The notes under the pieces were generated by a model, which worked only from the letters and a program-made list of their open reading frames with translations, had not been told where the DNA came from and searched no databases. Of a DNA stretch of 64,000 bases, positions 20,283-32,648 are shown piece after piece. The DNA lies in the NCBI RefSeq assembly GCF_039522665.1, contig NZ_BAAADV010000007.1, positions 372,001 to 436,000 of the forward strand, in the 5' to 3' direction. The translations under genes were made by a program, and so were the position numbers. The first letter of the stretch is position 1. Each line of letters opens with the position of its first letter. Source of the stretch: Natronoarchaeum mannanilyticum. GTDB lineage: Archaea > Halobacteriota > Halobacteria > Halobacteriales > Natronoarchaeaceae.

Positions 20283-22094
20283 ATGACGCAGTCTTGGAGC
20301 ATTTCGCAGGCGGTCGATCGACTAAATCACTCCATTCTGTTGCCAGCGATTCAGCGTGAGTTCGTCTGGGGCTCTGACCAAATCATCAGACTCTTCGACT
20401 CACTGATGCAGGGGTATCCGATCGGCTCGTTCCTTGTCTGGCATCTTAATGGAGAGGACGCCAACGACGAGATGAAATACCAATTCATCCAGCACTACAT
20501 CGAAGATAGCGTCCATCCTGATGAACCCGAGTTCGAGCAGATGAGACATCACAATAAGAAAATACGTGAAGAGGATGAGCTCGAACTCCCATCGGAACAG
20601 GATCTCATCCTAGACGGACAACAGCGTCTAACGGCGTTCTATATCGGACTCAAGGGCACATTCACGGAAAAGAGAAAATACGCTCAACGAAAGAACCCTG
20701 ACGCGTGGAACCAGAAACGACTTTATTTGAATTTGCTCTCTGGCGATGACGGACCTGTGGATGACGAACTCGGTCTTGAATATGAGTTCGCATTCAAGAA
20801 ACCGGAACCTGCGAACTCAGATGGAGCTTACTGGTACCGAGTTGGAAAGGTGCTTGAGATCGACCCTGCTGACGATATAATGGATATTGCTGAAGAGTTG
20901 GACATCGAAGACGAATACCGGTGGACAGCTGGGAAGACCCTGAAAAAGTTGTTTGACGTCGTTCACAACGATGACGTTATCCAGTACCACGAAGAGAATA
21001 CCTCTGATCGGGAGCGTGTCCTAGACATCTTCATCCGGATGAATGATGGAGGTACGCCGCTGAGTAAGTCGGAAATTCTCCTCTCGATGGCAACTGCACG
21101 ATGGGGAGAAGGCGATAATGCACTTGACGCACGTGAGCAGATCACAACGTTTGTAGACAACCTGAACAACCGGCATTCGGACAAGAGCTTCAAATTCGGC
21201 ATCGATTTCGTTCTGAAGGCGCTTCTAATGTATGGGACGGAAACGATTCCACAGTATCGCATCGGGAACTTCTCGAACGAGAATCTCGATCGAATGCAGG
21301 AGGTATGGGATGGCGGTAACTTCCAAGACTCGATAAAACGAGCGCTGGACTTGATTGTCGAGTTCGGGCTTGACGATCGGAGTCTAACGAGTCATAATGC
21401 GCTCATCCCGATTGCCTATTATATCTATAGACATGACCCCTCTCTGGATTGGACCTCTCAGACTGGTTTGGAGATGCGTCGTCGGATTCACTATTGGCTG
21501 ACGTCGGCGTTACTGAATGGAACGTTCAACTCACGTCCAGACGAGGTTTTAGACGATGCCAGAGAAGCTATCAATCAGACAGACGGTGAGTTCCCACTTG
21601 AAGAGATCCACTACAAAATGCGGGGAAGAGGGAAAGTTGTTGGATTCAGCGAAGACGTTCTAGATACGCTTCTCGAAGAGACAACGTACCGGTCACAGAA
21701 GTCGTTCCTGCTACTGTCGCTTCTCCACTTTGGCGAGACTGTTCGTCGCGGGATCGAATACGAGCAAGATCATATCTTCCCGCGAAACCAGCTAGATGCG
21801 GACAAGTTAGTTGAGGAACATGGAATCAGCCGAGTACGTGCCGAACAATATGAGGAGGCAAAAGATCGAATTGCAAACCTCCAGTTACTTACCGACGAAG
21901 AGAACGCGCAAAAGCAAGAAATGCCATTCCACGAGTGGATCACTACTCGAACCGAAGACTATCGAGAGCGGCATTGTATTCCGAACGACGACGAACTCTA
22001 TCAGATAGATAATTTCATCGAGTTCCTCGATCAGCGTGAAACCTTGATCCGCGATCGAATCACAAGTACATTCGAGGACTTCTCTGGTACCTAA
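20283..22094 (+). CDS. GmrSD-type DUF262/DUF1524 restriction endonuclease
   Basis: 603 aa. The N-terminal DUF262 domain has QREFVW at 22-27, LDGQQRLTAF at about 110-119 and FIRMNDGGTPLSKSEIL near 250, the ParB-like NTPase pattern of GmrS. The C-terminal DUF1524 HNH-like nuclease domain has EYEQDHIFPRNQL near 493-505 and RIANLQLLTDEEN. Together they match single-chain GmrSD/BrxU-type type IV enzymes, which cleave modified (for example glucosylated) phage DNA. Such enzymes often sit beside BREX and cover phages that escape it. The gene is intact and alone in its transcription unit; its 3' end touches the repeat-rich region downstream. Confidence 0.88.
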   Translation: MTQSWSISQAVDRLNHSILLPAIQREFVWGSDQIIRLFDSLMQGYPIGSFLVWHLNGEDANDEMKYQFIQHYIEDSVHPDEPEFEQMRHHNKKIREEDELELPSEQDLILDGQQRLTAFYIGLKGTFTEKRKYAQRKNPDAWNQKRLYLNLLSGDDGPVDDELGLEYEFAFKKPEPANSDGAYWYRVGKVLEIDPADDIMDIAEELDIEDEYRWTAGKTLKKLFDVVHNDDVIQYHEENTSDRERVLDIFIRMNDGGTPLSKSEILLSMATARWGEGDNALDAREQITTFVDNLNNRHSDKSFKFGIDFVLKALLMYGTETIPQYRIGNFSNENLDRMQEVWDGGNFQDSIKRALDLIVEFGLDDRSLTSHNALIPIAYYIYRHDPSLDWTSQTGLEMRRRIHYWLTSALLNGTFNSRPDEVLDDAREAINQTDGEFPLEEIHYKMRGRGKVVGFSEDVLDTLLEETTYRSQKSFLLLSLLHFGETVRRGIEYEQDHIFPRNQLDADKLVEEHGISRVRAEQYEEAKDRIANLQLLTDEENAQKQEMPFHEWITTRTEDYRERHCIPNDDELYQIDNFIEFLDQRETLIRDRITSTFEDFSGT

Positions 22095-22110
22095 GTCTAA
22101 CTCGAGTTTC

Positions 22111-22139
22111 GACACACACACCCCGTGTTTCATCTGCAA
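22111..22139 (-). repeat. ORB-like box 1 (29 nt, long form)
   Basis: Minus-strand copy identical to box 3 over 29 nt, with GGGG followed by TGTGTGTGTC. It is also the first part of an approximately 80-bp imperfect direct repeat shared with box 2 (22111-22192 and 22252-22332), which includes CATCTGCAAGTCC and later AATCATC. Confidence 0.65.
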
Positions 22140-22251
22140 GTCCTCTTGAGAGGGGGGACCCCCTCCGAATCAGCGGTCTTGAAATCATCAACTTAGTGAA
22201 TCGATGTTGCTTTCGATTCACTGAACTCGCTGAGAAGGTGATGCGCTTGGA

Positions 22252-22278
22252 GACACACACACCGTACTTCATCTGCAA
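22252..22278 (-). repeat. ORB-like box 2 (27 nt, short form)
   Basis: Minus-strand copy, reading TTGCAGATGAAGTACGG then TGTGTGTGTC. Two G are missing from the G-string relative to boxes 1 and 3, the same shortening as in box 4. Confidence 0.6.
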
Positions 22279-22435
22279 GTCCACGTGAGAAGGGAGGCCC
22301 CCTTCGAAATCAGTGACTTTGGAATCATCCAATTAGCGTAGGACAGAGAATCATCTACCCTGATTCTATCGCAAGTTCCCAAGAGCAGGATTACCTCGAG
22401 ATATGATCTTTTACTCACCTCTTGCTGAGAGATCC

Positions 22436-22484
22436 CCTTATTAACTATAATAAAACTCTTTTGGTATAGGTTATTATTACTGCT
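22436..22484. other. AT-rich segment, possible DNA unwinding element
   Basis: A run with very few G or C (for example TTATTAACTATAATAAAACT) centred between the inverted box pairs. Its position and composition fit a duplex-unwinding element, but it could also be a promoter region. Confidence 0.4.
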
Positions 22485-22615
22485 ATCAGAGAATCTACTC
22501 AGCAGATCGTATATCCACCTCTACCCATGAGAAACGAGCAATATAAGCGCTCTACAGGCAGTTCTCTTTTTCAGGGACCGGCGAAAAGCTACCCGACGGG
22601 CCTTCTCAGATACAT

Positions 22616-22644
22616 TTGCAGATGAAACACGGGGTGTGTGTGTC
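22616..22644 (+). repeat. ORB-like box 3 (29 nt, long form)
   Basis: Plus-strand copy, identical in its 29-nt core to box 1 and preceded by CAT as in box 4. It lies about 475 bp from box 1 in opposite orientation. Confidence 0.65.
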
Positions 22645-22831
22645 TGGAATCTCAGTCTAAGTCTTCGAGAGTTGTGTCTAAACTCTCCACTCGGCCATCT
22701 TATTAGTTCCCTCACATCTACTCACAGAAGCACCCATCCTATCGATTATTCCGAAGGCAAAGTCTCACTGTAGAGTACGCCCAATACTGTGACCGGGCTC
22801 TATTTCTGGGCCCTCCCTCTCTCAGAGGCAT

Positions 22832-22858
22832 TTGCAGATGAAGCACGGTGTGTGTGTC
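22832..22858 (+). repeat. ORB-like box 4 (27 nt, short form)
   Basis: Plus-strand copy, reading TTGCAGATGAAGCACGG then TGTGTGTGTC. It pairs with box 2 by its shortened G-string and is preceded by a CCCTCCCTCTCTCAGAGG stretch. Confidence 0.6.
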
Positions 22859-22862
22859 CAAC

Positions 22863-23228
22863 TCTGTATATTGACATTTTCCGCTTCTTAGTAGAGCTCA
22901 CGTCAAAACAGTACCCTCAGGCCACTGCGATTACCCCATTTTTGGTTTGAAAGTTGGCTGGAAGTTTGTCAGGGAGTTCAACCGACGACGATCGTCTTGA
23001 CTGCTTTCCGAATCCCGTTGTACATTCAAGGGGGAAATCTGCTCGTTAGCTGCTGGGTCTGTTAATTATAGACCGATTTTGAGTTCCTCAGTTCTTTGCT
23101 GCAACAACGGCTTTCCGAGCTACATTGCCCCTCTATTGGGTGATCTTCCCATATTCCTCCTTCAAAGTCGAGTATCTGGAGGGTGCTCAGGCTTATAATG
23201 AACCATCCTTGACTGCGTCACGGAACGA
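22863..23228. other. Non-coding gap with a promoter at its end
   Basis: No convincing ORF. A TATA-like GCTTATAATG at 23190-23199 lies about 30 bp upstream of the next ATG and probably drives the operon starting at 23229. Nothing else is recognised. Confidence 0.45.
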
Positions 23229-23897
23229 ATGAGCAACCAAGAGCAGTTAGACAAGCAGGCACTGACCGAGCTTCGAGACATCGCTAAAAAGGTAGCACTG
23301 GGCAACGCCCCACCAAGCGGCCTTCTTTCGCCAGCTTTCCACTACCTTGCACGGGCACCCATTCCGTCGGGTCACCTAGCCGTGAGATCGTTAGGCCGAA
23401 TTTCGTTTGGTCGAGACAACGCCCACAGACCGGGGATCATCCTGTTCGTTCCAGAACAGGACTTGAACAACAGCGACCGACTGCGTGAAGTCAACCGACA
23501 GGCTGCGTTAGGGGTCCCGACTCAGAAGGATTATCGCAGTATGACCGACGGGTCGTGGGATTCGCCCGACGCTGCTGCTACGTTCATCTCGAATAATGTC
23601 TCTCTCGAGCTCGATGCCGCAGAGCAGGCTGATGTCGAGTACGAGGGGACGATCTATAACCAGCTACTCCCAGCGGTGATCTGTGCCCTCGAGTCTATAG
23701 ACGATGCATATGTTCGATGGCGTGGCCCTGGATCGGAAGGTCGAGTGCAGATCGACGAAGCCCTCGAAGGCCAAAGTGGATTCGCAGTCTGGGTCCACCC
23801 GGACTGTCTGGGCCCAGACCTTCAACCAGAGGACATTGCGAGATTCTGCGACGCAGATGAGGGTCAAACATCCATAATGGAGGGAATCGATCTGTGA
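23229..23897 (+). CDS. Hypothetical protein beside the origin-like region
   Basis: 222 aa, acidic and soluble. It has a strand-helix core (HRPGIILFVPEQDL), an alpha-helical middle (LDAAEQADVEYEGTIYNQLL) and VQIDEALEGQSGFAVWVHPDCLG near the end. No family is recognised. Its stop overlaps the GTG start of the next gene (GTGA), so the two make one operon with a TATA box 30 bp upstream. Its place next to a candidate origin raises the possibility of a plasmid-derived function, but nothing in the protein shows that. Confidence 0.6.
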   Translation: MSNQEQLDKQALTELRDIAKKVALGNAPPSGLLSPAFHYLARAPIPSGHLAVRSLGRISFGRDNAHRPGIILFVPEQDLNNSDRLREVNRQAALGVPTQKDYRSMTDGSWDSPDAAATFISNNVSLELDAAEQADVEYEGTIYNQLLPAVICALESIDDAYVRWRGPGSEGRVQIDEALEGQSGFAVWVHPDCLGPDLQPEDIARFCDADEGQTSIMEGIDL

Positions 23898-24277
23898 GTG
23901 CTGATCAACACGACTTACTCGAGTGGTTCCCGACGGCTGACAAGGACCGAACGAGCGTCAGCAATGTCGTAGGTGCGACTCCACTAGGGATGAGCGTCAG
24001 GAGGGAAGTTCGCTTCCGTGACTGGGCTGATCCTGTTCTGGTCCGCTGTGAACTCGAAATTCGTCCTACCCATGCTGGAGGACGTATCGGGGTCGTTGAG
24101 TGGACAGTGATAGTCCTCGGAAAGGTCTCGACCGTTGCTCTCGAGAGAACTGAGCGTCTCTACGAAGAGATCGACTACGATCTCACTGTCGATGATTTAC
24201 GTGACCTCACGGCTGAGTTGATGTCGAAGCAAGCCCATCCGTTTGCGAAGGAAGGTTGGAGCGAAGTTCAGGACTAA
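23894..24277 (+). CDS. Hypothetical protein, second gene of the pair
   Basis: 127 aa with a GTG start overlapping the upstream stop. Beta-rich: DPVLVRCELEIRPT and RIGVVEWTVIVLGKVS, then an acidic helical tail (DLTVDDLRDLTAELMSK). No family is recognised. Coupled translation suggests that it works with the 222-aa protein. Confidence 0.55.
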   Translation: MSADQHDLLEWFPTADKDRTSVSNVVGATPLGMSVRREVRFRDWADPVLVRCELEIRPTHAGGRIGVVEWTVIVLGKVSTVALERTERLYEEIDYDLTVDDLRDLTAELMSKQAHPFAKEGWSEVQD

Positions 24278-24347
24278 CTCATCACAGCTTTTGCTTTGCT
24301 CAGAATCAAGTCTGCGAGTTGTGTCTGAGATGTAGTCAGGAAGGGAA

Positions 24348-24379
24348 GGCGTCCCACTACCCTGGGGTACCGGGACGCC
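24348..24379. repeat. 32-bp imperfect dyad upstream of the recombinase operon
   Basis: Arms GGCGTCCC and GGGACGCC enclose an inner TACCC/GGGTA pair; 13 of 16 positions per arm are symmetrical about a TG centre. It lies about 70 bp after the previous gene and 45 bp before the AbrB gene. It may be a transcription terminator hairpin, or a recombination site, since serine recombinases act at dyads with a 2-bp central overlap. Confidence 0.55.
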
Positions 24380-24386
24380 AGTGATT

Positions 24387-24417
24387 AGCACTAAATGTAG
24401 TGCTACCTTTAGCACTA
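24387..24417. promoter_or_regulatory. Operator-like triple repeat before the AbrB gene
   Basis: AGCACTA (24387-24393) and TAGTGCT (24398-24404) form a perfect 7-bp inverted repeat with a 4-nt spacer. A third AGCACTA half-site is at 24411-24417, only 7 bp before the ATG. AbrB-family proteins often autoregulate, so this is a good candidate operator for the protein encoded next to it. Confidence 0.5.
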
Positions 24418-24424
24418 ACTACGA

Positions 24425-24613
24425 ATGCCCAAGACAACCGTTACAAAGACTACGAGTACCACCACCAACTCCGACGGAGAAGACCGAACTGTCGAGCAGT
24501 ATCGAACGACTGTCCCCAAAGGCATTGCCGAGGCGATGGACCTCGCGGGAGCACGTGTCGAGTGGAACATCAAGAGCGGGAACACGCTCGAAATCACAGT
24601 CACCGATGAGTGA
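24425..24613 (+). CDS. AbrB/SpoVT-type small DNA-binding protein
   Basis: 62 aa. A Thr-rich N-terminal stretch leads into a swapped-hairpin AbrB core: YRTTVPKGIAEAMDLAGARVEW and SGNTLEITVTDE. Such proteins are transition-state regulators or antitoxins. It overlaps the serine recombinase start by 8 nt, so it probably represses the operon through the repeats just upstream. The start is fixed by the ATG 7 bp after the third half-site. Confidence 0.8.
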   Translation: MPKTTVTKTTSTTTNSDGEDRTVEQYRTTVPKGIAEAMDLAGARVEWNIKSGNTLEITVTDE

Positions 24614-25394
24614 CGCCACCACCAGCAAGGCGCTCGCGGTCATTCGACGATCGCAAGGCGACGAGGATGGTGCCAGCCTTCGTCTCCAGCGCGAACAGGT
24701 ACCTAGGCTCGCGAGCGATCTTGCTGACGAATGCGATGTCGTCGACCTAGGTGTCCACACCGGATTCAGCATACTCTCGCGAGACAAGGACGACCCGCGA
24801 ATTGACGATAACGACGAGATCCTCAACGCGATCGATCGGGTGCGAACTGGAGAGTACGACCACGTTGTCGCTTGGGACGACTCCCGACTGGCCCGTGACG
24901 ACTTTTTCGCGGAATGGCGGCGTGCAGCTGCTTCAGGCAGTGCCGAGTTCGCGTTCGTCGCTGGAGACGTTGATGTCGACAGTATGGAACACGGTGTTCG
25001 CCGTACGGTCGAGACTGCGATCAAGCGGGAGGAGATCAGGAAGGCTCGTGAGGCCGTGAACGACCGCGAACAGCGATCAATGTGGAACTCCCGGCCACCG
25101 GTTGGTCTCGAGTTCGACGACGCGCGCGAGTATCTGGTGGCAAGTGAGCGGTTCGACACTGTTGTGGATGCACTCGCGATGCGCGCCGACGGCGTGTCAT
25201 ATCGTTCGATCGCAGACGAGACCGGGCTCTCCCGCGGAGCGATTGAGCGGTGGGTCAACCACGTTGAGGACCGAGCACGGTCATGCCGGGATGACGGAAT
25301 CGCACGTAAGCTCCTCAATGCCGCCCCGGACGATGCAATTGACGGCTATGAGGGAGATGACCTGTCCGCGACCAGTGGAGGAGAAGCAGTATGA
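24606..25394 (+). CDS. Small serine recombinase (resolvase/invertase family)
   Basis: 262 aa from the ATG at 24606; a longer frame from 24381 would run through the AbrB gene and is rejected. The catalytic domain has IRRSQGDEDGASLRLQREQ with Ser16 as likely nucleophile, and DHVVAWDDSRLARD, the conserved D-R-x-x-R region. A C-terminal helix-turn-helix (VSYRSIADETGLSRGAIERWV) is near 197-217. Its role is DNA inversion, resolution or integration. It lies between an AbrB regulator and a 91-aa protein, all overlapping. The 32-bp dyad upstream could be its site. Confidence 0.85.
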   Translation: MSDATTSKALAVIRRSQGDEDGASLRLQREQVPRLASDLADECDVVDLGVHTGFSILSRDKDDPRIDDNDEILNAIDRVRTGEYDHVVAWDDSRLARDDFFAEWRRAAASGSAEFAFVAGDVDVDSMEHGVRRTVETAIKREEIRKAREAVNDREQRSMWNSRPPVGLEFDDAREYLVASERFDTVVDALAMRADGVSYRSIADETGLSRGAIERWVNHVEDRARSCRDDGIARKLLNAAPDDAIDGYEGDDLSATSGGEAV

Positions 25395-25666
25395 GTCACG
25401 ACGAAACCATTCAGAAGCTCATGTCGGTGATCGACCGGAACGAGATCGTTAGTGAGAACTCACAGCCAACGCTGTCGCAGGCGCGGGTGCTCGCACCTGC
25501 TGGGAGTTCATCGACAGATGTCGCGCTAGTCCTTAACGCAGCGCGCGATGGTGAGAATCGGCAGGTGACTGTGCGTACTGACGCTGACGGGATGCGCGCG
25601 CTTGGAGAGTCCCTCATTGAGGCAGCCGACTCAGTATCTCCCGACGACGGTCGTAGTGACGAGTAG
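25391..25666 (+). CDS. Small protein of the recombinase operon
   Basis: 91 aa; its start overlaps the recombinase stop (ATGA). Helical N-terminus (ETIQKLMSVIDRNEIV), then beta-like RQVTVRTDADGMRALGESLIEAAD. No family is recognised. Coupling suggests an accessory role for the recombinase, such as directionality factor or antitoxin-like partner, but this is inference. Confidence 0.6.
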   Translation: MSHDETIQKLMSVIDRNEIVSENSQPTLSQARVLAPAGSSSTDVALVLNAARDGENRQVTVRTDADGMRALGESLIEAADSVSPDDGRSDE

Positions 25667-26283
25667 CGTCGCTTCTCCCTTGACAGATAATACTAACCAG
25701 TCTTGTTTAAATACCTAATTAGTGACATGTTTTAACGGTCGTGCTGAATACAGAGAGTTTCAGCATGGCGTCTCCATAGATGAAAGCCAAAGTATCAGTC
25801 GTTCGATATACGTATTCTTAGCATGTCATAGAATTCTTCTCGTACGCTTCGAAGTGACCGAAGTGATCGATATAGGTGTGCCATTTATCACATATTACTG
25901 CGACATATAGAATGTCGGCACACTACCGACAAAAATCCAGCCCCAAGGTTCGACGTCGCATAACTTCGAAACTCGGGGCTGGTAGTAGGTGACCACCAAG
26001 GAGATCCGAGGACTCCAGTTCCTCGACTCCTTGTTTCTGCGGTCAACCTGATGATCTTCGAGAAACCGAGAGCTTGTCACTACAGTTTCCAGGTGGAAAT
26101 GCGGGCGATGGATTATGGTTGGGACAGTAAACCCTGGCCCGCGTCTACAGGCAGGTTCCCGCTCCGTATAAGAGGTAGGTCCAGTCCGAAGTTCGTTCAA
26201 TTTGTATACCAACCTAACAGCTGTTTCATAGATTTCCGAATATATTTGATGCTATCGAATAGTCGTGCGCAGATGACCGTCAG
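25667..26283. other. Gene-free region with strong hairpins
   Basis: No ORF here looks like a haloarchaeal protein; a minus-strand frame at 25895-26212 is rejected (basic composition, no motif). It contains a long hairpin at 25937-25982 and another, GAGGA...TCCTC, at about 26007-26023. It lies between convergent genes. An unrecognised structured RNA or a mobile-element remnant is possible. Confidence 0.35.
25937..25982. repeat. Long two-part hairpin
   Basis: Outer stem CCAGCCCC/GGGGCTGG (8 bp, perfect) and inner stem near GGTTCGA/TCGAAAC (one mismatch) with a 10-12-nt loop. Too long for a simple terminator and not a tRNA. It may be RNA structure or an element end. Confidence 0.4.
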
Positions 26284-26574
26284 CTATGCCAGGATCTCCA
26301 TGTCTTTGAGGTACTGGTGTTCCCATTCACGGCGGGCTTCGAGTTCCCTCTGGCCGCGCTGCGTCAGTGCGTAGTAGTTGGTCCGCCGATCGAGCTCCCC
26401 TTTCTCGACGAGTCCCTTGTCCACCAGGGCATCGAGATTCGGGTACAGTCGGCCATGGTGAATCTCCTGGTCGTAGTAGTCCTCGAGTTCGGCTTTGATT
26501 GCGAGCCCGTGTGGCTGGTCGTGGCCGGCGATCACGTACAGCAGGTCGCGCTGGAATCCGGTCAAGTCGTGCAT
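26284..26574 (-). CDS. PadR-family transcription regulator
   Basis: 96 aa from the ATG at 26574 (MHDLTGFQRDLL), preferred over a GTG 12 nt upstream because this opening is standard in the family. Winged helix: GLAIKAELEDYYDQEIHHGRLYPNL, then the wing DKGLVEKGELDRRTNYYALT. PadR proteins repress by binding DNA as dimers. A paralogue lies at 29929-30225 with mirrored neighbours. No effector-binding C-terminal domain is present, so this is the short subfamily. Confidence 0.88.
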   Translation of the reverse strand: MHDLTGFQRDLLYVIAGHDQPHGLAIKAELEDYYDQEIHHGRLYPNLDALVDKGLVEKGELDRRTNYYALTQRGQRELEARREWEHQYLKDMEILA

Positions 26575-26734
26575 GCCCTGGCCCACCTATCTTGAGGTGG
26601 CAATACGTTCACACTTAATAGCCAAGGGCGATTTGGTTGGTCAGCGGAGAGATCGCTGGTCGTACTGGGTTGTACGGCAGACTGGCGGGAAACGGCCACC
26701 AGACATTTACTGGTAGTGGGCTTGCCGCCGGGTA

Positions 26735-26878
26735 ATGCACCCCGAAGCGATCGAGCAATGCGCGTATTGTCATGCTCCAGAACCGGTAACATACTATGAG
26801 ATCAATGATGGACCGAATGCAGCGCTCACCGCACGGATTCCGATCTGCGAAGAGTGCTTCCACCAAACCGGTTACTGA
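26735..26878 (+). CDS. Short CxxC-CxxC zinc-ribbon protein
   Basis: 47 aa. It starts MHPEAIEQCAYCHAPEPV and has a second CEEC 27 residues after the first CxxC, ending FHQTGY. Four Cys in two knuckles fit a small zinc ribbon of the kind common in haloarchaea. Opposite in strand to the adjacent PadR and DUF7344 genes. A second zinc-ribbon gene sits at the mirrored position (29011-29214). Confidence 0.6.
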   Translation: MHPEAIEQCAYCHAPEPVTYYEINDGPNAALTARIPICEECFHQTGY

Positions 26879-26968
26879 GTCTTCACAAGATCGATTTCGT
26901 TGACCCCCTCTACGGACAAGAGGTTTGACACCTCGCAGCGTTCGATATGGGGAAAGCACCTCACTTTC

Positions 26969-27346
26969 TCACCGGCTGTCACTCTCGTCAACGTAGTCGA
27001 GGTGCGTCTCGACTGTGGGGAGAGGAGTATACTGGACACTGCCAGCCTGGGCCTCGTACTCAACGATCCCAGCGTCCATGAGTTTCGGGAGGTGGATGTG
27101 GTGGAGTTGGATTGCGACAGCCTCGGCGTTCTGCGGGCCTGAGCTTCGCTCACTGATGTGCTCGGCGAGCTGGTGGCGGGATGCCGCGTTCCCCATGGCG
27201 TCCTGTAGATACCGAAGGATCAACCGACGATTCTGGTCGGCCAACGTTGCGTAGATTTCGTCGGTCGCGATGTCGCTGGCTTCGCCCGGCCCAAGTTCTT
27301 GCTCGCCCGTTGCCCCGGGCCCGCCGAGAGGAGGTCTGTAGCTCAT
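26969..27346 (-). CDS. DUF7344 winged-helix regulator
   Basis: 125 aa from the ATG at 27346 (MSYRPPLGG), preferred over a GTG 24 nt upstream. Core: ATDEIYATLADQNRRLILRYL, then RHQLAEHISERS, AVAIQLHHIHLPKLMDAGIVEYE and a wing. The HHIHLPKL block is a DUF7344 hallmark and is repeated in the paralogue at 28524-28922. A presumed DNA-binding regulator. Confidence 0.75.
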   Translation of the reverse strand: MSYRPPLGGPGATGEQELGPGEASDIATDEIYATLADQNRRLILRYLQDAMGNAASRHQLAEHISERSSGPQNAEAVAIQLHHIHLPKLMDAGIVEYEAQAGSVQYTPLPTVETHLDYVDESDSR

Positions 27347-28128
27347 GGTTGTGTGAAACCTTACCCGCACTCACGCCACCGAGATAGTTAACGATTTTCC
27401 CGTTCAAAACCGTTTCTCAGATAAACGGTGTATTGCCGCTGCTTGGTGCTGTTTTTCCATCGCTACTGTTCGACGAGCCTGATCTATAGTTCTGGGAAGA
27501 ACGTAACTGATTGAGGCAGAGCGCTTCTTTCACTATTCATCTCGTTTCTCCGACGTCTTAGCGTCTGGCTTTTCGGCCTTCCGCAGTTGCTGGACGAGGG
27601 TCAGATCCAGGAGGAGACTCACACGGAAGTAATCAGCTCTCGCAGATCATCCAATCGTTCGATACAGTAGAGGTACAGCACAGTAGCGCGTATTCCAGCC
27701 AGTAGGGAGTTCGCCTTTGTGATCGTCCAGTAACTCCAGAAGTGGTCTGACACGAGCGCTACTAACCGACACTGAGCGGGAGCAGATCAACGGTGAGCAT
27801 GGGGACAACAGGAAGTACCAAGCAGCATCTCGAATCCGGAGTCGCATCAACGAGGAGCCGACGACCGACGTGGAACTCCTCCAGGAACATCACCCCCATC
27901 TCTACGATGAGCTACGGGACACAGTGAGAGACGGGGAGTGACCGACAGAATAGACGGGGCAGGTCTATGAGATGGGACACCCGGTTGGAACAACTGATCG
28001 ATGATTGGGGCAGACATATTGTCAAGTCAGTATGAGAAATCCCGGGGTTTCGAGCGCAATTTGACAAACATTCCAGCGTTAGTCTGGGACCCTGACCCAA
28101 TCTCCAGCACCCAAGCGCGACAATCACT
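27347..28128. other. Gene-poor gap with a coding remnant
   Basis: Apart from the remnant at 27723-27941, no gene is convincing. Near 27398-27428 the pair CCGTT and AACGG repeats around an AT-rich stretch in what is probably the promoter zone of the DUF7344 gene. ORFs on the minus strand at 27647-27850 and 27912-28127 have no protein-like features. Confidence 0.4.
27723..27941 (+). pseudogene. Start-less fragment of a haloarchaeal small protein
   Basis: The frame is open after a stop at 27720-27722 and contains no usable ATG or GTG near its beginning, yet the translation is clearly protein-like and acidic: LTRALLTDTEREQIN, then GDNRKYQAASRIRSRINEEP, DVELLQEHHPHLYDEL. This pattern recurs in small haloarchaeal virus or plasmid-type proteins. 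It may begin at CTG 27747 or be a 5'-deleted relic. Confidence 0.4.
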
Positions 28129-28428
28129 TCATGTGACCTTTACGAACTCCGCGGCCCCGTCCTGTGACAGCGTAATCCGATACCCCTCGTAGGTGACTGT
28201 GATCTGGACCTGCGCTTCCGGTGCTGGCGGATCAGCGAACACATTGGCAAGAATATCGTCGACCGTCGAGTAAAGGGGAGACAGTGTCTGAGGGTCCGTA
28301 TCCTTCAGGTCAGCCACGGTTTCTACGACAGCCGTTTCCGGCGTGGTTTCGGCGGGATCAAATTGCTGGCGAATGATACTCCGTTCGCGTTCGTCCGTGG
28401 TATCGTTCACGATGATAATCGACAACAC
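28129..28428 (-). CDS. HalOD1 domain protein
   Basis: 99 aa with a GTG start at 28428. The C-terminal half matches the halobacterial output domain 1: TAVVETVADLKDTDPQTLSP, LYSTVDDILANVF, then VQITVTYEGYRITLSQDG. HalOD1 proteins are small haloarchaeal signalling or regulatory proteins of unknown ligand. It diverges from the DUF7344 gene at 28524. A second HalOD1 gene is at 29406. Confidence 0.75.
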   Translation of the reverse strand: MLSIIIVNDTTDERERSIIRQQFDPAETTPETAVVETVADLKDTDPQTLSPLYSTVDDILANVFADPPAPEAQVQITVTYEGYRITLSQDGAAEFVKVT

Positions 28429-28523
28429 ATGTAGTTATAGAAGTCCAGTATCCGCCCGTTGATACGTCCTCCAGATCCGGTTTTGCCCGAATGCTTTAGG
28501 GGCGACCCGTGGTACTATTTCGC

Positions 28524-28922
28524 ATGGCTGGTGGGCCACCCAACGATGACGGGAAGGAGAGTGCCAAGGAAATGGACCAAGAGCAAGCGGTGGCCACTAC
28601 TAACCCACTCTCACTTGACGCGACATTTGACGCCCTGGCAGACGCCGAGCGACGGACGATACTCCACTACCTTACTGACGCTGCGGATCACGAGGCCACG
28701 GTTGATGAACTTGTGAGCCACATCACACAGCAGGAGGCCAGTCATACGGGTGAACTGCCAAGCCGGGACAGCATCGAGATGCGACTCCACCACATTCACC
28801 TGCCGAAACTGGTCGAGGTTGGCCTCGTCGAGTACGATACCCGGACTGAGCAACTTCGATACTGGTCCGACGACCGACTCGAAACGTGGCTTGAACGAGC
28901 GCGTGACGAAGTTCAGGACTAA
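28524..28922 (+). CDS. DUF7344 winged-helix regulator (second copy)
   Basis: 132 aa from the ATG at 28524 (MAGGPPNDDG), chosen over a GTG 15 nt upstream. Core LDATFDALADAERRTILHYL, then VDELVSHITQQE, SIEMRLHHIHLPKLVEVGLVEYD and the wing TEQLRYWSDDRL. It is plainly related to the protein at 26969-27346 and lies in inverted orientation to it. A presumed regulator. Confidence 0.78.
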   Translation: MAGGPPNDDGKESAKEMDQEQAVATTNPLSLDATFDALADAERRTILHYLTDAADHEATVDELVSHITQQEASHTGELPSRDSIEMRLHHIHLPKLVEVGLVEYDTRTEQLRYWSDDRLETWLERARDEVQD

Positions 28923-29010
28923 CATTTGGAGCTACATCGGTTGGAGCAGACCTGAACGGGATCGAGAACACTTCGTCAGTGCAGTGAGATGGTCTGGTGG
29001 CTTACTACAG

Positions 29011-29214
29011 TCATAGCTCATCGTCGGTTGATCCCTCAGTGATCACCTCCTCAGAATCAGGGACGTTCTCAATCGAAGTCACATCCACTACAAGGCCACC
29101 TGCTTCAAACTCACTGAGGCAGTCCTTGCATAGACGAAGTTCCTCAGCTTTTTCTTCAGTGAAGATCACCCGAACCCGTTGCGCTCCTGACGCCGAACAC
29201 TCAGTACACTGCAT
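29011..29214 (-). CDS. Small zinc-ribbon protein
   Basis: 67 aa from the ATG at 29214 (MQCTECSASGAQRVRVIF); an upstream in-frame start would add 12 residues with no cysteine. CTEC and CKDC (26 residues apart) form a zinc knuckle pair, followed by an acidic tail. It occupies the place equivalent to the 47-aa protein at 26735 in the mirrored cluster, though its sequence is only similar in the cysteine layout. Confidence 0.55.
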   Translation of the reverse strand: MQCTECSASGAQRVRVIFTEEKAEELRLCKDCLSEFEAGGLVVDVTSIENVPDSEEVITEGSTDDEL

Positions 29215-29405
29215 ATCCAATACTACATTGGCCCTCTCCTTAATTACCACTTCCCAGTATAATGTTTTTTAGCCGATTATAGAACGGGGTAGCTGACCTC
29301 GGACGAAACAAGCCGTTGAAGCCCCGGTACTACCAATTTTAGGAGATTCACTACCTCAGTAATTGGGTGTGAATGCTTTGCACGGGCAGGCCGATGGGTG
29401 ATATA

Positions 29406-29720
29406 ATGACGCCCCCGGACAGCGACGCATACCATGTGTACCACGACTGGAGAGAAGCCGACCTCAGCGCAAGCATTGGGGTTTGTCTCCTCGAAGCAAC
29501 CGACCAAGAACTCGACAATCTTGGGACGCCACTGTATGACGTCGTCAACATCGAGGCGTTGGAGACGTTGCTCAGTCCCCAAGATGGAAACACGGGGACT
29601 GTCGCTCAGGTTCGCTTCACCATCGATGGTCACACAGTGACCGTCAGCAGCCACGAAGAGATCGCCCATATTATCGTCCACCCCGGCAAGACGACGCTCA
29701 CCGAACAACTATTGTCTTAG
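29406..29720 (+). CDS. HalOD1 domain protein (second copy)
   Basis: 104 aa from the ATG at 29406 (MTPPDSDAYHVYHDW); an ATG at 29394 is also in frame. HalOD1 pattern: DLSASIGVCLLEATDQELDN, LGTPLYDVVNIEALETLLS, VRFTIDGHTVTVSSHEE. Function unknown. It is followed, after about 200 bp, by the second PadR gene. Confidence 0.72.
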   Translation: MTPPDSDAYHVYHDWREADLSASIGVCLLEATDQELDNLGTPLYDVVNIEALETLLSPQDGNTGTVAQVRFTIDGHTVTVSSHEEIAHIIVHPGKTTLTEQLLS

Positions 29721-29928
29721 TAGCTGCCGGTATTGATCGTCACGAGCGAGCGTTCTCTCATGAATCGTGGAGAGAACACATTCACCAGTTGGACTTGACG
29801 TACAGGAGCTTCAGAGATAGAGAAGATACTGACCGACTGAGCCATACGTGGGTTACATGCCCCGTAGTTGACCAATAACCGATTAAGTAAGGTGATAACA
29901 ATAGTGAGGACCTTCGAGAGTCTCCCCT

Positions 29929-30225
29929 ATGAGCTTATTCAAGATAACGGCGTTTCAGCGTGATCTCCTGTTCATCATCGCCAGTTTAGACCATCCCACG
30001 GGACAAGACATTAAAGCGCGATTCGAGGATGAAACAGCAACCGAAGTAAACCGCGGGAATGTATACCCCAATCTCGATACTCTTGTTGAAAATGGATTTA
30101 TCAAAAAAGAGAGCCTTGATCGCCGGGCAAACTGCTACCTCCTTACCGAGAAGGGAGTCTATTGTCTCCACCAGAGATATGAGTGGGAACAAGAACAGTT
30201 GAGCAATGTCCAGCAGAATGTATGA
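29929..30225 (+). CDS. PadR-family regulator (second copy)
   Basis: 98 aa. ITAFQRDLLFIIASLDHPTGQDIKARFED, then VNRGNVYPNLDTLVENGFIKKE and SLDRRANCYLLTEKG are the PadR winged-helix core. Closely similar to the protein at 26284-26574 and in the opposite orientation, as part of the mirrored cluster. It has a leaderless-looking start after an AT-rich stretch. Confidence 0.85.
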   Translation: MSLFKITAFQRDLLFIIASLDHPTGQDIKARFEDETATEVNRGNVYPNLDTLVENGFIKKESLDRRANCYLLTEKGVYCLHQRYEWEQEQLSNVQQNV

Positions 30226-30443
30226 TCAATTCGCAAGAGCTATCTAACAGCCGATTCGCTGAAGTCCGGGTGAAAACAATTTCTTGAGAACGGTTCTATG
30301 TCAGGGTCGTGTTCTTGTAACTAGCGAAATTCGAACTCAGCAATCGCTAACAGACGATCAGTTTAGAGACGCCAGCCGGCTATTGTGTCGGGGTTAGTGG
30401 AGGAAGGAAGAGGTATCCCAATCCCAGGTGGGCCAATTCATCC

Positions 30444-31547
30444 CTAGTAGTTAACCTCTTCTTCGTCCTGCATGATGCGCTCTATGAGCTCTTTACGAGC
30501 TTGCATCTTTTCTTCGTCGTCGTTCTTGTTGTAATACTTTTTTACTGTTCCCGGTTCGGCGTCGACGCGATCGCTCAGGACTCGCGGTGGGACTCCCTCA
30601 CTACTGACGTGAGTAATGTACCCACGTCGGATGTCGTGTGGCGAGCGAGTCGATGGACAACCCGATGGCTTGTCCCGGTTCTCCGCTGTTTCACAGGAGC
30701 TGGGCTGCTTACCGTGAGGGCACGTTTCCCCGAGCTCACAGGGCCGTGTCCATTTGTAGACCATCCCGCGGATGGTCGAAGGATTTGCTCGACCATGGGA
30801 CGTCCCTATGAGCGGCATGCGACCGTAGTCGTCGGTGACCTTGGGATGATTGTACTGGAGATACTGTTCGATGGCTTCAGCGGTTTCCTCCGTAATGAAG
30901 ACGCGCCGTTCAGAGTCGTCGCGATTTTTCAAGTTCGTTCCTTCTTCAGGTCGGTTTCGAAGCTCGATGTGGGGCACCTCTGCATCGAGATGAACGTCAG
31001 GTACGTCGATCGAGTGAACGCTGCCGAGTCTCAGACCGCTATCCACGAACAGTCGCCAGACGACCTCCTCTGCTTTTCCACCTTCAGCTTTCGCGATGTG
31101 GCTCAGGATCTCCTCTGCACGGTCATACTCGAGGATCTCATCACTCGTCTCATCTTCGTCTTCGATTTCCGGCACGTACACGCGATCGGCCATCCCTGGC
31201 GTTACGTACTCCATCGACTCCATCGCGCGCATGAAGACACGAATCGTCTTCATGTGCTCTTGGAGCGTCTTCGGAGCCAACACATCGACCTTTTCGGTAG
31301 CCTCGGTCCGTCGCCATTCGCGGTACTGTTCGATGTCGTGCCCGCGGAGATCGCTGACGTACTCGATTTCCTCGAGTTCGCAGTATTCCACGAGGTGGTT
31401 CAGGCGCTTTCGATGAGTATCGACGGTTCCTTGCGTCGTATTACTCTCGGTTTTGCGCCGGGTGAGATACGCTTCGACGGCCTCGTCGACGGCGATCTGG
31501 ATTGGCTCCTGAGGACTTGATGGCTGTCGCTTGTCCGACTTACTCAT
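30444..31547 (-). CDS. Tyrosine recombinase (integrase)
   Basis: 367 aa from the ATG at 31547. An N-terminal core-binding domain (VDEAVEAYLTRR...) is at about 15-110; the C-terminal catalytic domain holds the first Arg in DSGLRLGSV, HDIRR (H-x-x-R) and the tyrosine in VKKYYNK. A Cys-rich insertion (CELGETCPHGKQPSSC) resembles a zinc-binding loop. The start overlaps the upstream gene by 8 nt. It is the best candidate for mobilising this island, being about 1 kb from tRNA-Arg. It may act with the free N-domain protein just upstream. Confidence 0.9.
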   Translation of the reverse strand: MSKSDKRQPSSPQEPIQIAVDEAVEAYLTRRKTESNTTQGTVDTHRKRLNHLVEYCELEEIEYVSDLRGHDIEQYREWRRTEATEKVDVLAPKTLQEHMKTIRVFMRAMESMEYVTPGMADRVYVPEIEDEDETSDEILEYDRAEEILSHIAKAEGGKAEEVVWRLFVDSGLRLGSVHSIDVPDVHLDAEVPHIELRNRPEEGTNLKNRDDSERRVFITEETAEAIEQYLQYNHPKVTDDYGRMPLIGTSHGRANPSTIRGMVYKWTRPCELGETCPHGKQPSSCETAENRDKPSGCPSTRSPHDIRRGYITHVSSEGVPPRVLSDRVDAEPGTVKKYYNKNDDEEKMQARKELIERIMQDEEEVNY

Positions 31548-31884
31548 CTTCCGCCTCCACGTAGTCGACAAACCTGTCGACCGTTTTCATGTGCTCGACG
31601 ATAGTCGATTCAGCAAGCTCCTCGACTTTCAGAGGCGCTTCAGATCGACGCCAAGTACGATACTTGTCGAGGTCGTGGGATAGCAGCTCGCGCGGCGTCT
31701 CGATACCCTGCTGTTCGCAATAATCGACAAGGTACCTGAGCCGTCGTTTCTCGACTTCCACCGTGCTTTCCATGAGCTCCGACTCGTTCATCCGGTGATC
31801 GAGGTAGCTATCTACAGCTTCTTCAATCGTCGAATGGGTGGGGCCACCTCGTTCAAAGGCGTCGAGTCGCTCTTGTTCACTCAT
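31540..31884 (-). CDS. Stand-alone integrase N-terminal (core-binding) domain paralogue
   Basis: 114 aa, homologous to the first 110 or so residues of the integrase encoded next to it: EEAVDSYLDHR / DEAVEAYLTRR, RLRYLVDYCEQQGIE / RLNHLVEYCELEEIE, HDLDKYRTWRRSEA / HDIEQYREWRRTEA, VEHMKTV / QEHMKTI. It has no catalytic domain. It starts within the previous gene's stop region and overlaps the integrase start by 8 nt. It could bind arm sites as a decoy, excisionase-like factor or helper. No frameshift is visible that would join the two. Confidence 0.8.
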   Translation of the reverse strand: MSEQERLDAFERGGPTHSTIEEAVDSYLDHRMNESELMESTVEVEKRRLRYLVDYCEQQGIETPRELLSHDLDKYRTWRRSEAPLKVEELAESTIVEHMKTVDRFVDYVEAEDE

Positions 31885-32077
31885 CTAAACTCACCTCTTC
31901 GTCCTGCCAAGTTGTCAAGGCTTGACGATCAGCAGCGGTGTTCAACCTGCTGTACGATCCCGAGCTGTGGTTGGGCTCGGTTCGACTCCGGCGCTGGCCG
32001 ATCAGCGCTATCTTTGGTTCACGGGGATACCGGGCATAGATAGCGCGTATTGAGGCCGTTCCTTTCTGATCTCGCAT
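31877..32077 (-). CDS. Small first gene of the integrase operon
   Basis: 66 aa, basic N-terminal half (MRDQKGTASIRAIYARYPRE, IGQRRSRTEP), acidic end. Its last codons overlap the next ATG (GATGAGTGA). No family is recognised. The operon position and size suit an excisionase or regulator, but no helix-turn-helix is clear. Confidence 0.5.
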   Translation of the reverse strand: MRDQKGTASIRAIYARYPREPKIALIGQRRSRTEPNHSSGSYSRLNTAADRQALTTWQDEEVSLDE

Positions 32078-32549
32078 GGCACCTGAACCTCGTTAGTCAC
32101 ATTGACTTAAGGGTCAGCCTCAGAGATATGATAGGAAATACCCGGGATAGCTACATAAGATGGCTCTCACCTGTCTCTACTCCCCGAATTTTGCTCGAAT
32201 GATAAACGCGCCAATATTTGTTTGAGAAGTGGTAGTTCTCACGCACAGTGAGCGTGACTCACTGAGCGTTAGACGAACACGAGGTTTGTCGCACGCACAG
32301 TGAGAACGGCGCACGCTGCGTGCGACAGCGAACCAGTTAGAGTTGGCGCGCGCTCCACCACTAACTCGCGCGCAGACCTGAGCCGATTCACGAACATTTA
32401 ACACGGTTCTACACGTTTGAGATCCTGCGAACCGTATGACGGCGTCGACCCGCATCACGCAGCATGATGGAATCTACCTCGGCCGACGGGGGGTTCTTTA
32501 TAAGCAACCCTCCGCCGTCTGTGGAATCCTAACCATCATGAAAACGGAT
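32078..32549. other. Repeat-rich gap between the integrase operon and tRNA-Arg
   Basis: No gene. It holds several inverted repeats at 32230-32380, including GTCGCACGCA...TGCGTGCGAC, GCGCGCG...CGCGCGC, and CGCACAGTGAG repeated at 32241-32251 and 32295-32305. It also has a stretch at 32484-32518 with dyad symmetry around CTTTATAAG. Such sites between integrase and tRNA often serve recombinase binding or integrase regulation. Confidence 0.45.
32288..32326. repeat. Inverted repeat near the putative att region
   Basis: Perfect 10-bp arms GTCGCACGCA (32288-32297) and TGCGTGCGAC (32317-32326). The spacer contains a copy of CAGTGAGAACG. It could be an arm-type integrase site or operator. Confidence 0.5.
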
Positions 32550-32623
32550 GGGCGCTGCAGGATTTGAACCCGCGACAGCTTGGTCCGAAGCCAAGTACTC
32601 TGTCCAAACTGAGCTAAGCGCCC
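32550..32623 (-). tRNA. tRNA-Arg (anticodon TCG)
   Basis: Read on the minus strand, acceptor arms GGGCGCT and AGCGCCC pair fully, the D arm is GCTC...GAGT, the anticodon arm CTTGG-CTTCGGA-CCAAG gives anticodon TCG (Arg), and the T arm is GCGGG-TTCAAAT-CCTGC. 74 nt without intron; CCA is not encoded. Its 3' end points towards the integrase operon, the usual arrangement for an integrated element. It marks the change from AT-richer island to GC-rich core DNA. Confidence 0.95.
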
Positions 32624-32648
32624 TCGATACACCGTCCGGCCGAGACGA

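Follow-up and report, generated by a model that had tools for sequence, protein, structure and literature searches.

A haloarchaeal serine recombinase cassette with an AbrB-like partner gene, and a dyad at which flanking DNA appears to have been exchanged

A 32-bp dyad precedes three overlapping genes in Natronoarchaeum mannanilyticum, and the locus raises the question whether this dyad is a site of recombination and, if so, what kind of rearrangement takes place there. The window, that is, the whole stretch of 64,000 nucleotides analysed here, covers 372-436 kb of a 700-kb contig. The initial annotation had described a dyad with a TG centre, a triple AGCACTA repeat ending 7 bp upstream of the first ATG (at 24425) and three overlapping genes, and this anatomy is borne out. 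The features of the cassette are as follows.

24348-24379, plus strand: dyad, 32 bp, the probable crossover site and proposed attL; the TG centre is 24363-24364
24386-24417, plus strand: proposed AbrB operator of putative function, three AGCACTA/TAGTGCT units, 12 bp apart
24425-24613, plus strand: AbrB/SpoVT-like small DNA-binding protein, 62 aa, with weak matches below the cut-offs, recurring beside the recombinase
24606-25394, plus strand: serine recombinase of resolvase size, 262 aa, with the catalytic domain at the N terminus and an HTH at the C terminus
25391-25666, plus strand: 91-aa protein with no assigned function, overlapping the recombinase gene

The dyad arms, GGCGTCCCACTACCC and GGGTACCGGGACGCC, form 13 of 15 pairs around the TG centre. 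When the intergenic 147 bp (24278-24424) were subjected to 1000 dinucleotide shuffles, pairing of at least 13/15 never arose, and this is the only dyad in the 64-kb window with 15-base arms, a 2-base centre and at least 13 pairs. A second, weaker dyad is situated at 24299-24329, with 14-nt arms that are 79% complementary and a centre 49 bp to the left of that of the main dyad; it is possibly an accessory site or a product of chance. Three AGCACTA/TAGTGCT units in one stretch were seen in none of 2000 shuffles, the whole window containing six copies. The AbrB-like and recombinase genes overlap by 8 bases, the recombinase gene and that of the 91-aa protein by 4 bases. The region of the latter has DNA homology in four close relatives, the open reading frame itself having been read in G008 alone.

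The assignment of the two proteins relies on weak matches and on the family alignment. The AbrB-like protein matches MazE_antitoxin (E 0.0017) and lp_hng_hel_AbrB (E 0.00062), both below the curated cut-offs of Pfam and NCBIfam. As a single sequence, the recombinase matches Pfam Resolvase below the cut-off (E 0.0044), the catalytic match spanning residues 12-153, and HTH_23 at residues 188-220 (E 5.2e-5, 23.4 bits with the cut-off of 24.6). In the family, Resolvase is found at E<=0.01 in 17 of 29 members, with the best E of 4.6e-23, and HTH_23 in 19 of 29. Residues R14, S16, Q28, R94 and R97 are invariant across the alignment of 29 sequences; we take them to be equivalent to R8, S10, Q19, R68 and R71 of the gamma-delta resolvase. 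Two features of small serine recombinases, the N-terminal catalytic Arg/Ser, Gln and Arg residues and a C-terminal helix-turn-helix, are found in the family. Recombinases of this size are more commonly resolvases or invertases. The PHROGs scan yielded weak integrase and invertase matches, and a single-sequence phmmer search against solved structures gave no match at E<=1. The recombinase profile matched solved structures weakly, the first being an unrelated repeat protein (E 0.0012), followed by the Tn552 resolvase (E 0.0034) and then by other serine recombinases. The predicted structure, with a mean pLDDT of 46.5, is too poor to use.

Matches to the recombinase at E<=0.001 were obtained in 104 of 391 haloarchaeal genomes, many of them partial and distant. 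Three stretches of viral contigs fit a pattern, none of them being a relative, and the search of phages gave no match. Among the 31 loci L002-L032 (L002 being the window's own), an AbrB-like motif lies upstream of the recombinase in 27; by motif search, it is absent in L008, L012, L024 and L029. The arrangement of dyad, operator-like array, AbrB-like gene and recombinase gene is seen again at divergent loci of haloarchaea, and plasmids carry it too.

We picked 22 dyads, including that of the window, by eye, and hence the conservation figures are somewhat inflated: G4, G17, G18 and C29 are present in all 22, T5 and A28 in 21. The centre is GG in 16 loci and TG in 6. The beginning of the operator-like array, also counted by eye, is placed at a nearly fixed distance: TTAG starts 4-5 bp past the dyad in 13/22 loci, 16/22 if TTAA and TTAT are counted and 17/22 with one TAG. 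In one more locus the start is 10 bp past the dyad, and in four none is recognisable. The left edge of homology is at most 4 bp from the dyad start in 41 of 49 pairs, which are non-independent; by itself, this clustering marks just the beginning of the functional unit. The right edges from this comparison were set aside, the recombinase start and with it the stop being misplaced in several loci.

The window was further compared with four close relatives, G008, G256, G309 (Natrinema salsiterrestre S1CR25-10) and G322 (Halobiforma haloterrestris DSM 13078). By the left flank, the window goes with G309, and G008 with G322, while G256 has just the last ~85 bp of the G008/G322 type. By the cassette, the window groups with G008 and G256, and G309 with G322. 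Thus all four combinations of the two left flanks and the two cassette types occur, with the break at the dyad. In terms of DNA identity, the window and G309 are 95.5-98.6% identical in the left flank and only 72.8% in the recombinase gene, whereas for G309 and G322 the flank is at the background level (45-47%) and the recombinase gene is 98.3% identical. Similarly, the window and G008 have the flank at background and the recombinase gene at 91.5%, and G008 and G322 80.6-91.3% and 73.4%, respectively. The left half-site (dyad positions 1-16) travels with the left flank: it is identical (16/16) within the type, that is, in the window-G309 and G008-G322 pairs, and matches at 13/16 between the types, as in G309-G322 and window-G008. 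Some 85-100 bp to the left of the dyad are conserved in G008, G256 and G322, with other DNA beyond in G256. The left flank of G008 features an 884-aa gene (L034, 5749-8403) that by eye resembles prokaryotic Argonaute, and the end of this flank is also present in G322.

A second set of four loci, L018 (G077), L023 (G286), L030 (G137) and L053 (G229), is less clean. The cassettes of L023 and L053 are 98-99% identical and their left flanks are unrelated, while L053 and L030 have a common left flank (83-97%) and cassettes that differ, with 87% identity in the AbrB part and at most 70% beyond. The L030 recombinase is interrupted by stops. L023 and L018 have in common ~100 bp left of the dyad, at 75%. 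The segregation of half-sites is not clean in this set, L053 matching both L023 and L030 at 14/16. L018 and L023 likewise have a conserved stretch to the left of the dyad that gives way to unrelated DNA, which resembles the situation at the right end of the window's segment.

The other side of the rearrangement is seen in genome G226. It is collinear with window positions 22089-24313 (94.9%) and then with 30322-32625 (94.8%), with 40 nt between these blocks. The junction reads GTGTCCTACTACCC-TG-TAAC, that is, the left half-site of the dyad is joined at TG to the right flank of the window. G226 has no match to the recombinase at E<=1. The comparison defines the following features.

24364-30316, unstranded: segment missing from G226, proposed integrated element, 5953 bp, from TG to TG
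30226-30315, unstranded: right end common to the window, G309 and G199, with different DNA beyond in each
30316-30317, unstranded: proposed attR, core dinucleotide TG at the right junction, from the comparison with G226 and G309
23229-24277, plus strand: two host-side genes left of the junction, also present in G226
30444-31571, minus strand: tyrosine integrase gene of the flanking DNA, adjoining the joined site in G226

In G309 this right junction lies at contig positions 34543-34544, which gives a proposed insertion of ~24.9 kb. The ~90 bp left of the right junction are common to the window, G309 and G199, the latter carrying this right end without a close recombinase; in G110 and G364 the right end is not clear. 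A search with the window's left flank in 391 genomes matched five; the match covers most of the flank in three (its own genome, G309 and G226) and consists of pieces of ~44-61 bases in the other two, and G226 is the one empty site for this flank type in the sample. For the second left-flank type, 13 of the 391 genomes matched, ten in pieces of 23-51 bases alone, and no empty site was found. Flank-based searches of plasmids, together with three annotated regions taken from them, showed no further empty site; for three of these searches this refers to the best 10-15 of 213, 10 and 181 matching records. The end of homology to G008, G256 and G322 near 25755 had suggested a smaller mobile cassette, of just 1.4 kb (24351-25755); for the window this idea was dropped, since 5.95 kb are missing in G226 and other pairs have scattered right edges.

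These comparisons show an exchange of DNA between lineages at the dyad centre, and the centre is very probably the crossover point, whether the process is integration, deletion or replicon resolution. The suggestion of the initial annotation that the dyad might be a crossover site is thereby strengthened, given the flank breaks at the dyad in both sets of loci and the G226 junction. The same breaks, together with the recurrence of a like site in the 22 eye-picked loci, with G17 and G18 in all of them, and the lack of a T-run after the dyad, make it very improbable that the dyad has no role beyond that of a terminator or operator and that the flank breaks are due to ordinary homologous or illegitimate recombination, even though pairing is perfect over the outer 8 bp of the arms, which might fold in RNA.

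The initial annotation had further proposed a self-regulated DNA switch. A recombinase inverting its own cassette or a neighbouring segment would be in line with two observations elsewhere: the Natrinema genomes G146 and G147 have a dyad-like site ~1.04 kb to the right of where the recombinase begins, in inverted orientation with respect to the dyad on the left in G146 and its relatives, and plasmid pHLAC01 has two inverted recombinase copies. However, a search of the window's own genome with a 26-base pattern, allowing at most 3 mismatches, found no second copy of the dyad, the cassette orientation is the same in the flank-sharing pairs (the window and G309; G008 and G322), and the G226 comparison demonstrates a loss or gain of 5.95 kb and no inversion. 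The uniqueness of the dyad is not a decisive refutation, since the partner junction shares little with it beyond the TG core; still, a self-contained invertible switch is not supported, and we regard it as very improbable. The two related recombinase genes of pHLAC01 (L061, L063) are ~63 kb apart, each near an ISHla1 transposase gene. Outer flanks common to G147, G146 and the SYSU A 869 plasmid occur in differing combinations at the Natrinema loci L040, L042 and L060. An integron-like array of modules in Natrinema was also considered and rejected, as there is too little to build on: right-hand sites in G146 and G147, half-sites or weaker ones in SYSU A 869, and a pair of outer flanks in common.

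Resolution of plasmid or replicon multimers is another candidate role. In this case the dyad would be a res-like site present once per replicon, and replicon resolution with occasional inter-replicon exchange would yield the flank swaps as by-products. The size and domain order of the recombinase are resolvase-like, with the weak profile match to the Tn552 resolvase; 12 plasmid records in PLSDB contain a relative, four of them covering at least 80% of the query; and no second dyad with at least 21/32 matches was found within the sequence available for the 22 loci, two of which (L056, L058) are complete plasmids. On the other hand, the window belongs to a 700-kb contig, the G226 comparison involves 5.95 kb gained or lost with a non-dyad partner site, and the left flanks are unrelated between the types, and therefore contain no accessory site common to the family. 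Hence we consider this role rather unlikely.

The reading that we favour, and hold to be fairly probable given the sequence comparisons, is that the three genes together serve an integrative element as its recombination module, with the dyad as attL and an insertion of ~5.95 kb. The serine recombinase would bind the dyad, cut at its TG centre and join it to a second site matching in the core dinucleotide, a cut with a 2-bp stagger being usual for this family. The outcome in the window would be an element at 24364-30316 between attL and attR, and G226 would represent an unoccupied or emptied site. Integration into a TG target, the dyad being the left junction, accounts for the right end as well as for one empty and two occupied sites. 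We infer the recombinase as the enzyme responsible, integration as the direction, and control of the recombinase through AbrB repression, as well as all binding events.

That the same enzyme deleted the segment in G226 is an alternative to be taken seriously, though on balance an unlikely one. Here the dyad would be older, and the ancestor of G226 would have recombined it with a secondary TG site and lost 5.95 kb. This agrees with the partner site not being a dyad and with the right end being situated beside the host DNA also in G199, which lacks a close recombinase. However, between the window and G309 the right end is more divergent (73/84 identical) than the host DNA next to it (534/542; Fisher p 4e-6), which is what a right end belonging to the element should show; between the window and G199 the corresponding values, 78/84 and 526/542, do not differ significantly (p 0.10). 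Our probabilities for the integrative reading and its rivals overlap, the deletion having the same enzyme and the same site.

Several facts fit integration poorly. The donor site reconstructed from the right end, TG and the cassette half is a poor dyad while the proposed attL is a good one; for phage-type serine integrases the opposite is expected, the donor site being more dyad-like than attL. The two left-flank types have different cores, TG in one and GG in the other, whereas matching cores are normally required by serine recombinases. Finally, a simple attL does not account for the stretch conserved on the left side of the dyad in G008, G256 and G322 with other DNA beyond it in G256, nor does integration account for the similar stretch in L018 and L023.

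The position of the AGCACTA repeats, in a layout that recurs, is the one expected for binding by an AbrB autorepressor, in line with a model in which the AbrB-like protein would bind the array upstream of its own start and hold the operon low. As the array starts at a near-fixed distance from the crossover dyad, one may also propose, tentatively and as a quite unlikely extension, that this protein is both a repressor and an accessory subunit of the recombination complex, an architectural factor that could determine in which direction or topology a resolvase-sized archaeal integrase reacts.

The 5.95-kb segment also holds the following cargo.

26284-26586, minus strand: PadR
26969-27370, minus strand: DUF7344
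28129-28428, minus strand: HalOD1
28509-28922, plus strand: DUF7344
29011-29250, minus strand: DUF7685, weak match
29373-29720, plus strand: HalOD1
29929-30225, plus strand: PadR

One query matched 385 of the 391 genomes, among the matches listed nearly all in the PadR part. The G+C content, in 1-kb steps, is 0.51-0.56 in the segment, no different from the values spanned by the left flank (0.47-0.58), and 0.59-0.69 from 32 kb on. The left flank contains a GmrSD-type restriction gene (20283-22094; GmrSD_N E 7.9e-31), and the region from this gene to 23229, in particular 22089-22860, features short, partly inverted repeats with multiple matches to G309.

In the open-access library searched we found no paper on this cassette. 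A 2021 review (PMC8371274) notes archaeal serine recombinases in transposons as never fully investigated. Here such a recombinase comes with a site, a likely operator and junctions mapped by comparison; its relatives are spread over many haloarchaea and over plasmids, and its small size would allow the unit to be tested on a single reporter plasmid. Should the integration reading be true, a resolvase-sized enzyme works as an integrase and might serve haloarchaeal genetics as a compact tool. Small serine recombinases and AbrB regulators, each taken alone, are already known kinds; it is their pairing, the mapped junctions and the near-fixed spacing of dyad and operator that look new.

The cassette resembles the small serine resolvases and invertases (Sin of Tn552, gamma-delta resolvase, Hin) in the size, domain order and conserved Arg-Ser and Arg residues of the enzyme, and in the dyad crossover site with a 2-bp centre. 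It differs from them by the AbrB-like partner gene and the operator-like array beside the site, and by the exchanged flanks and the 5.95-kb segment gained or lost. With the large serine integrases (phiC31, Bxb1, TP901-1) it has in common the proposed attL adjoining the recombinase gene and sites sharing little beyond the core dinucleotide. However, those enzymes have ~450-700 aa and a large C-terminal DNA-binding region, whereas the cassette enzyme, of 262 aa, lacks such a region, and its donor site is not dyad-like. The IS607 family, with its low apparent target specificity, is similar in that a serine recombinase moves DNA with little apparent choice of target. No TnpB match was found among the scanned cargo ORFs. 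The DNA-binding domain of IS607 TnpA is N-terminal, as described in PMC6188088, whereas in the cassette enzyme the HTH (188-220) is C-terminal, following the catalytic match (12-153).
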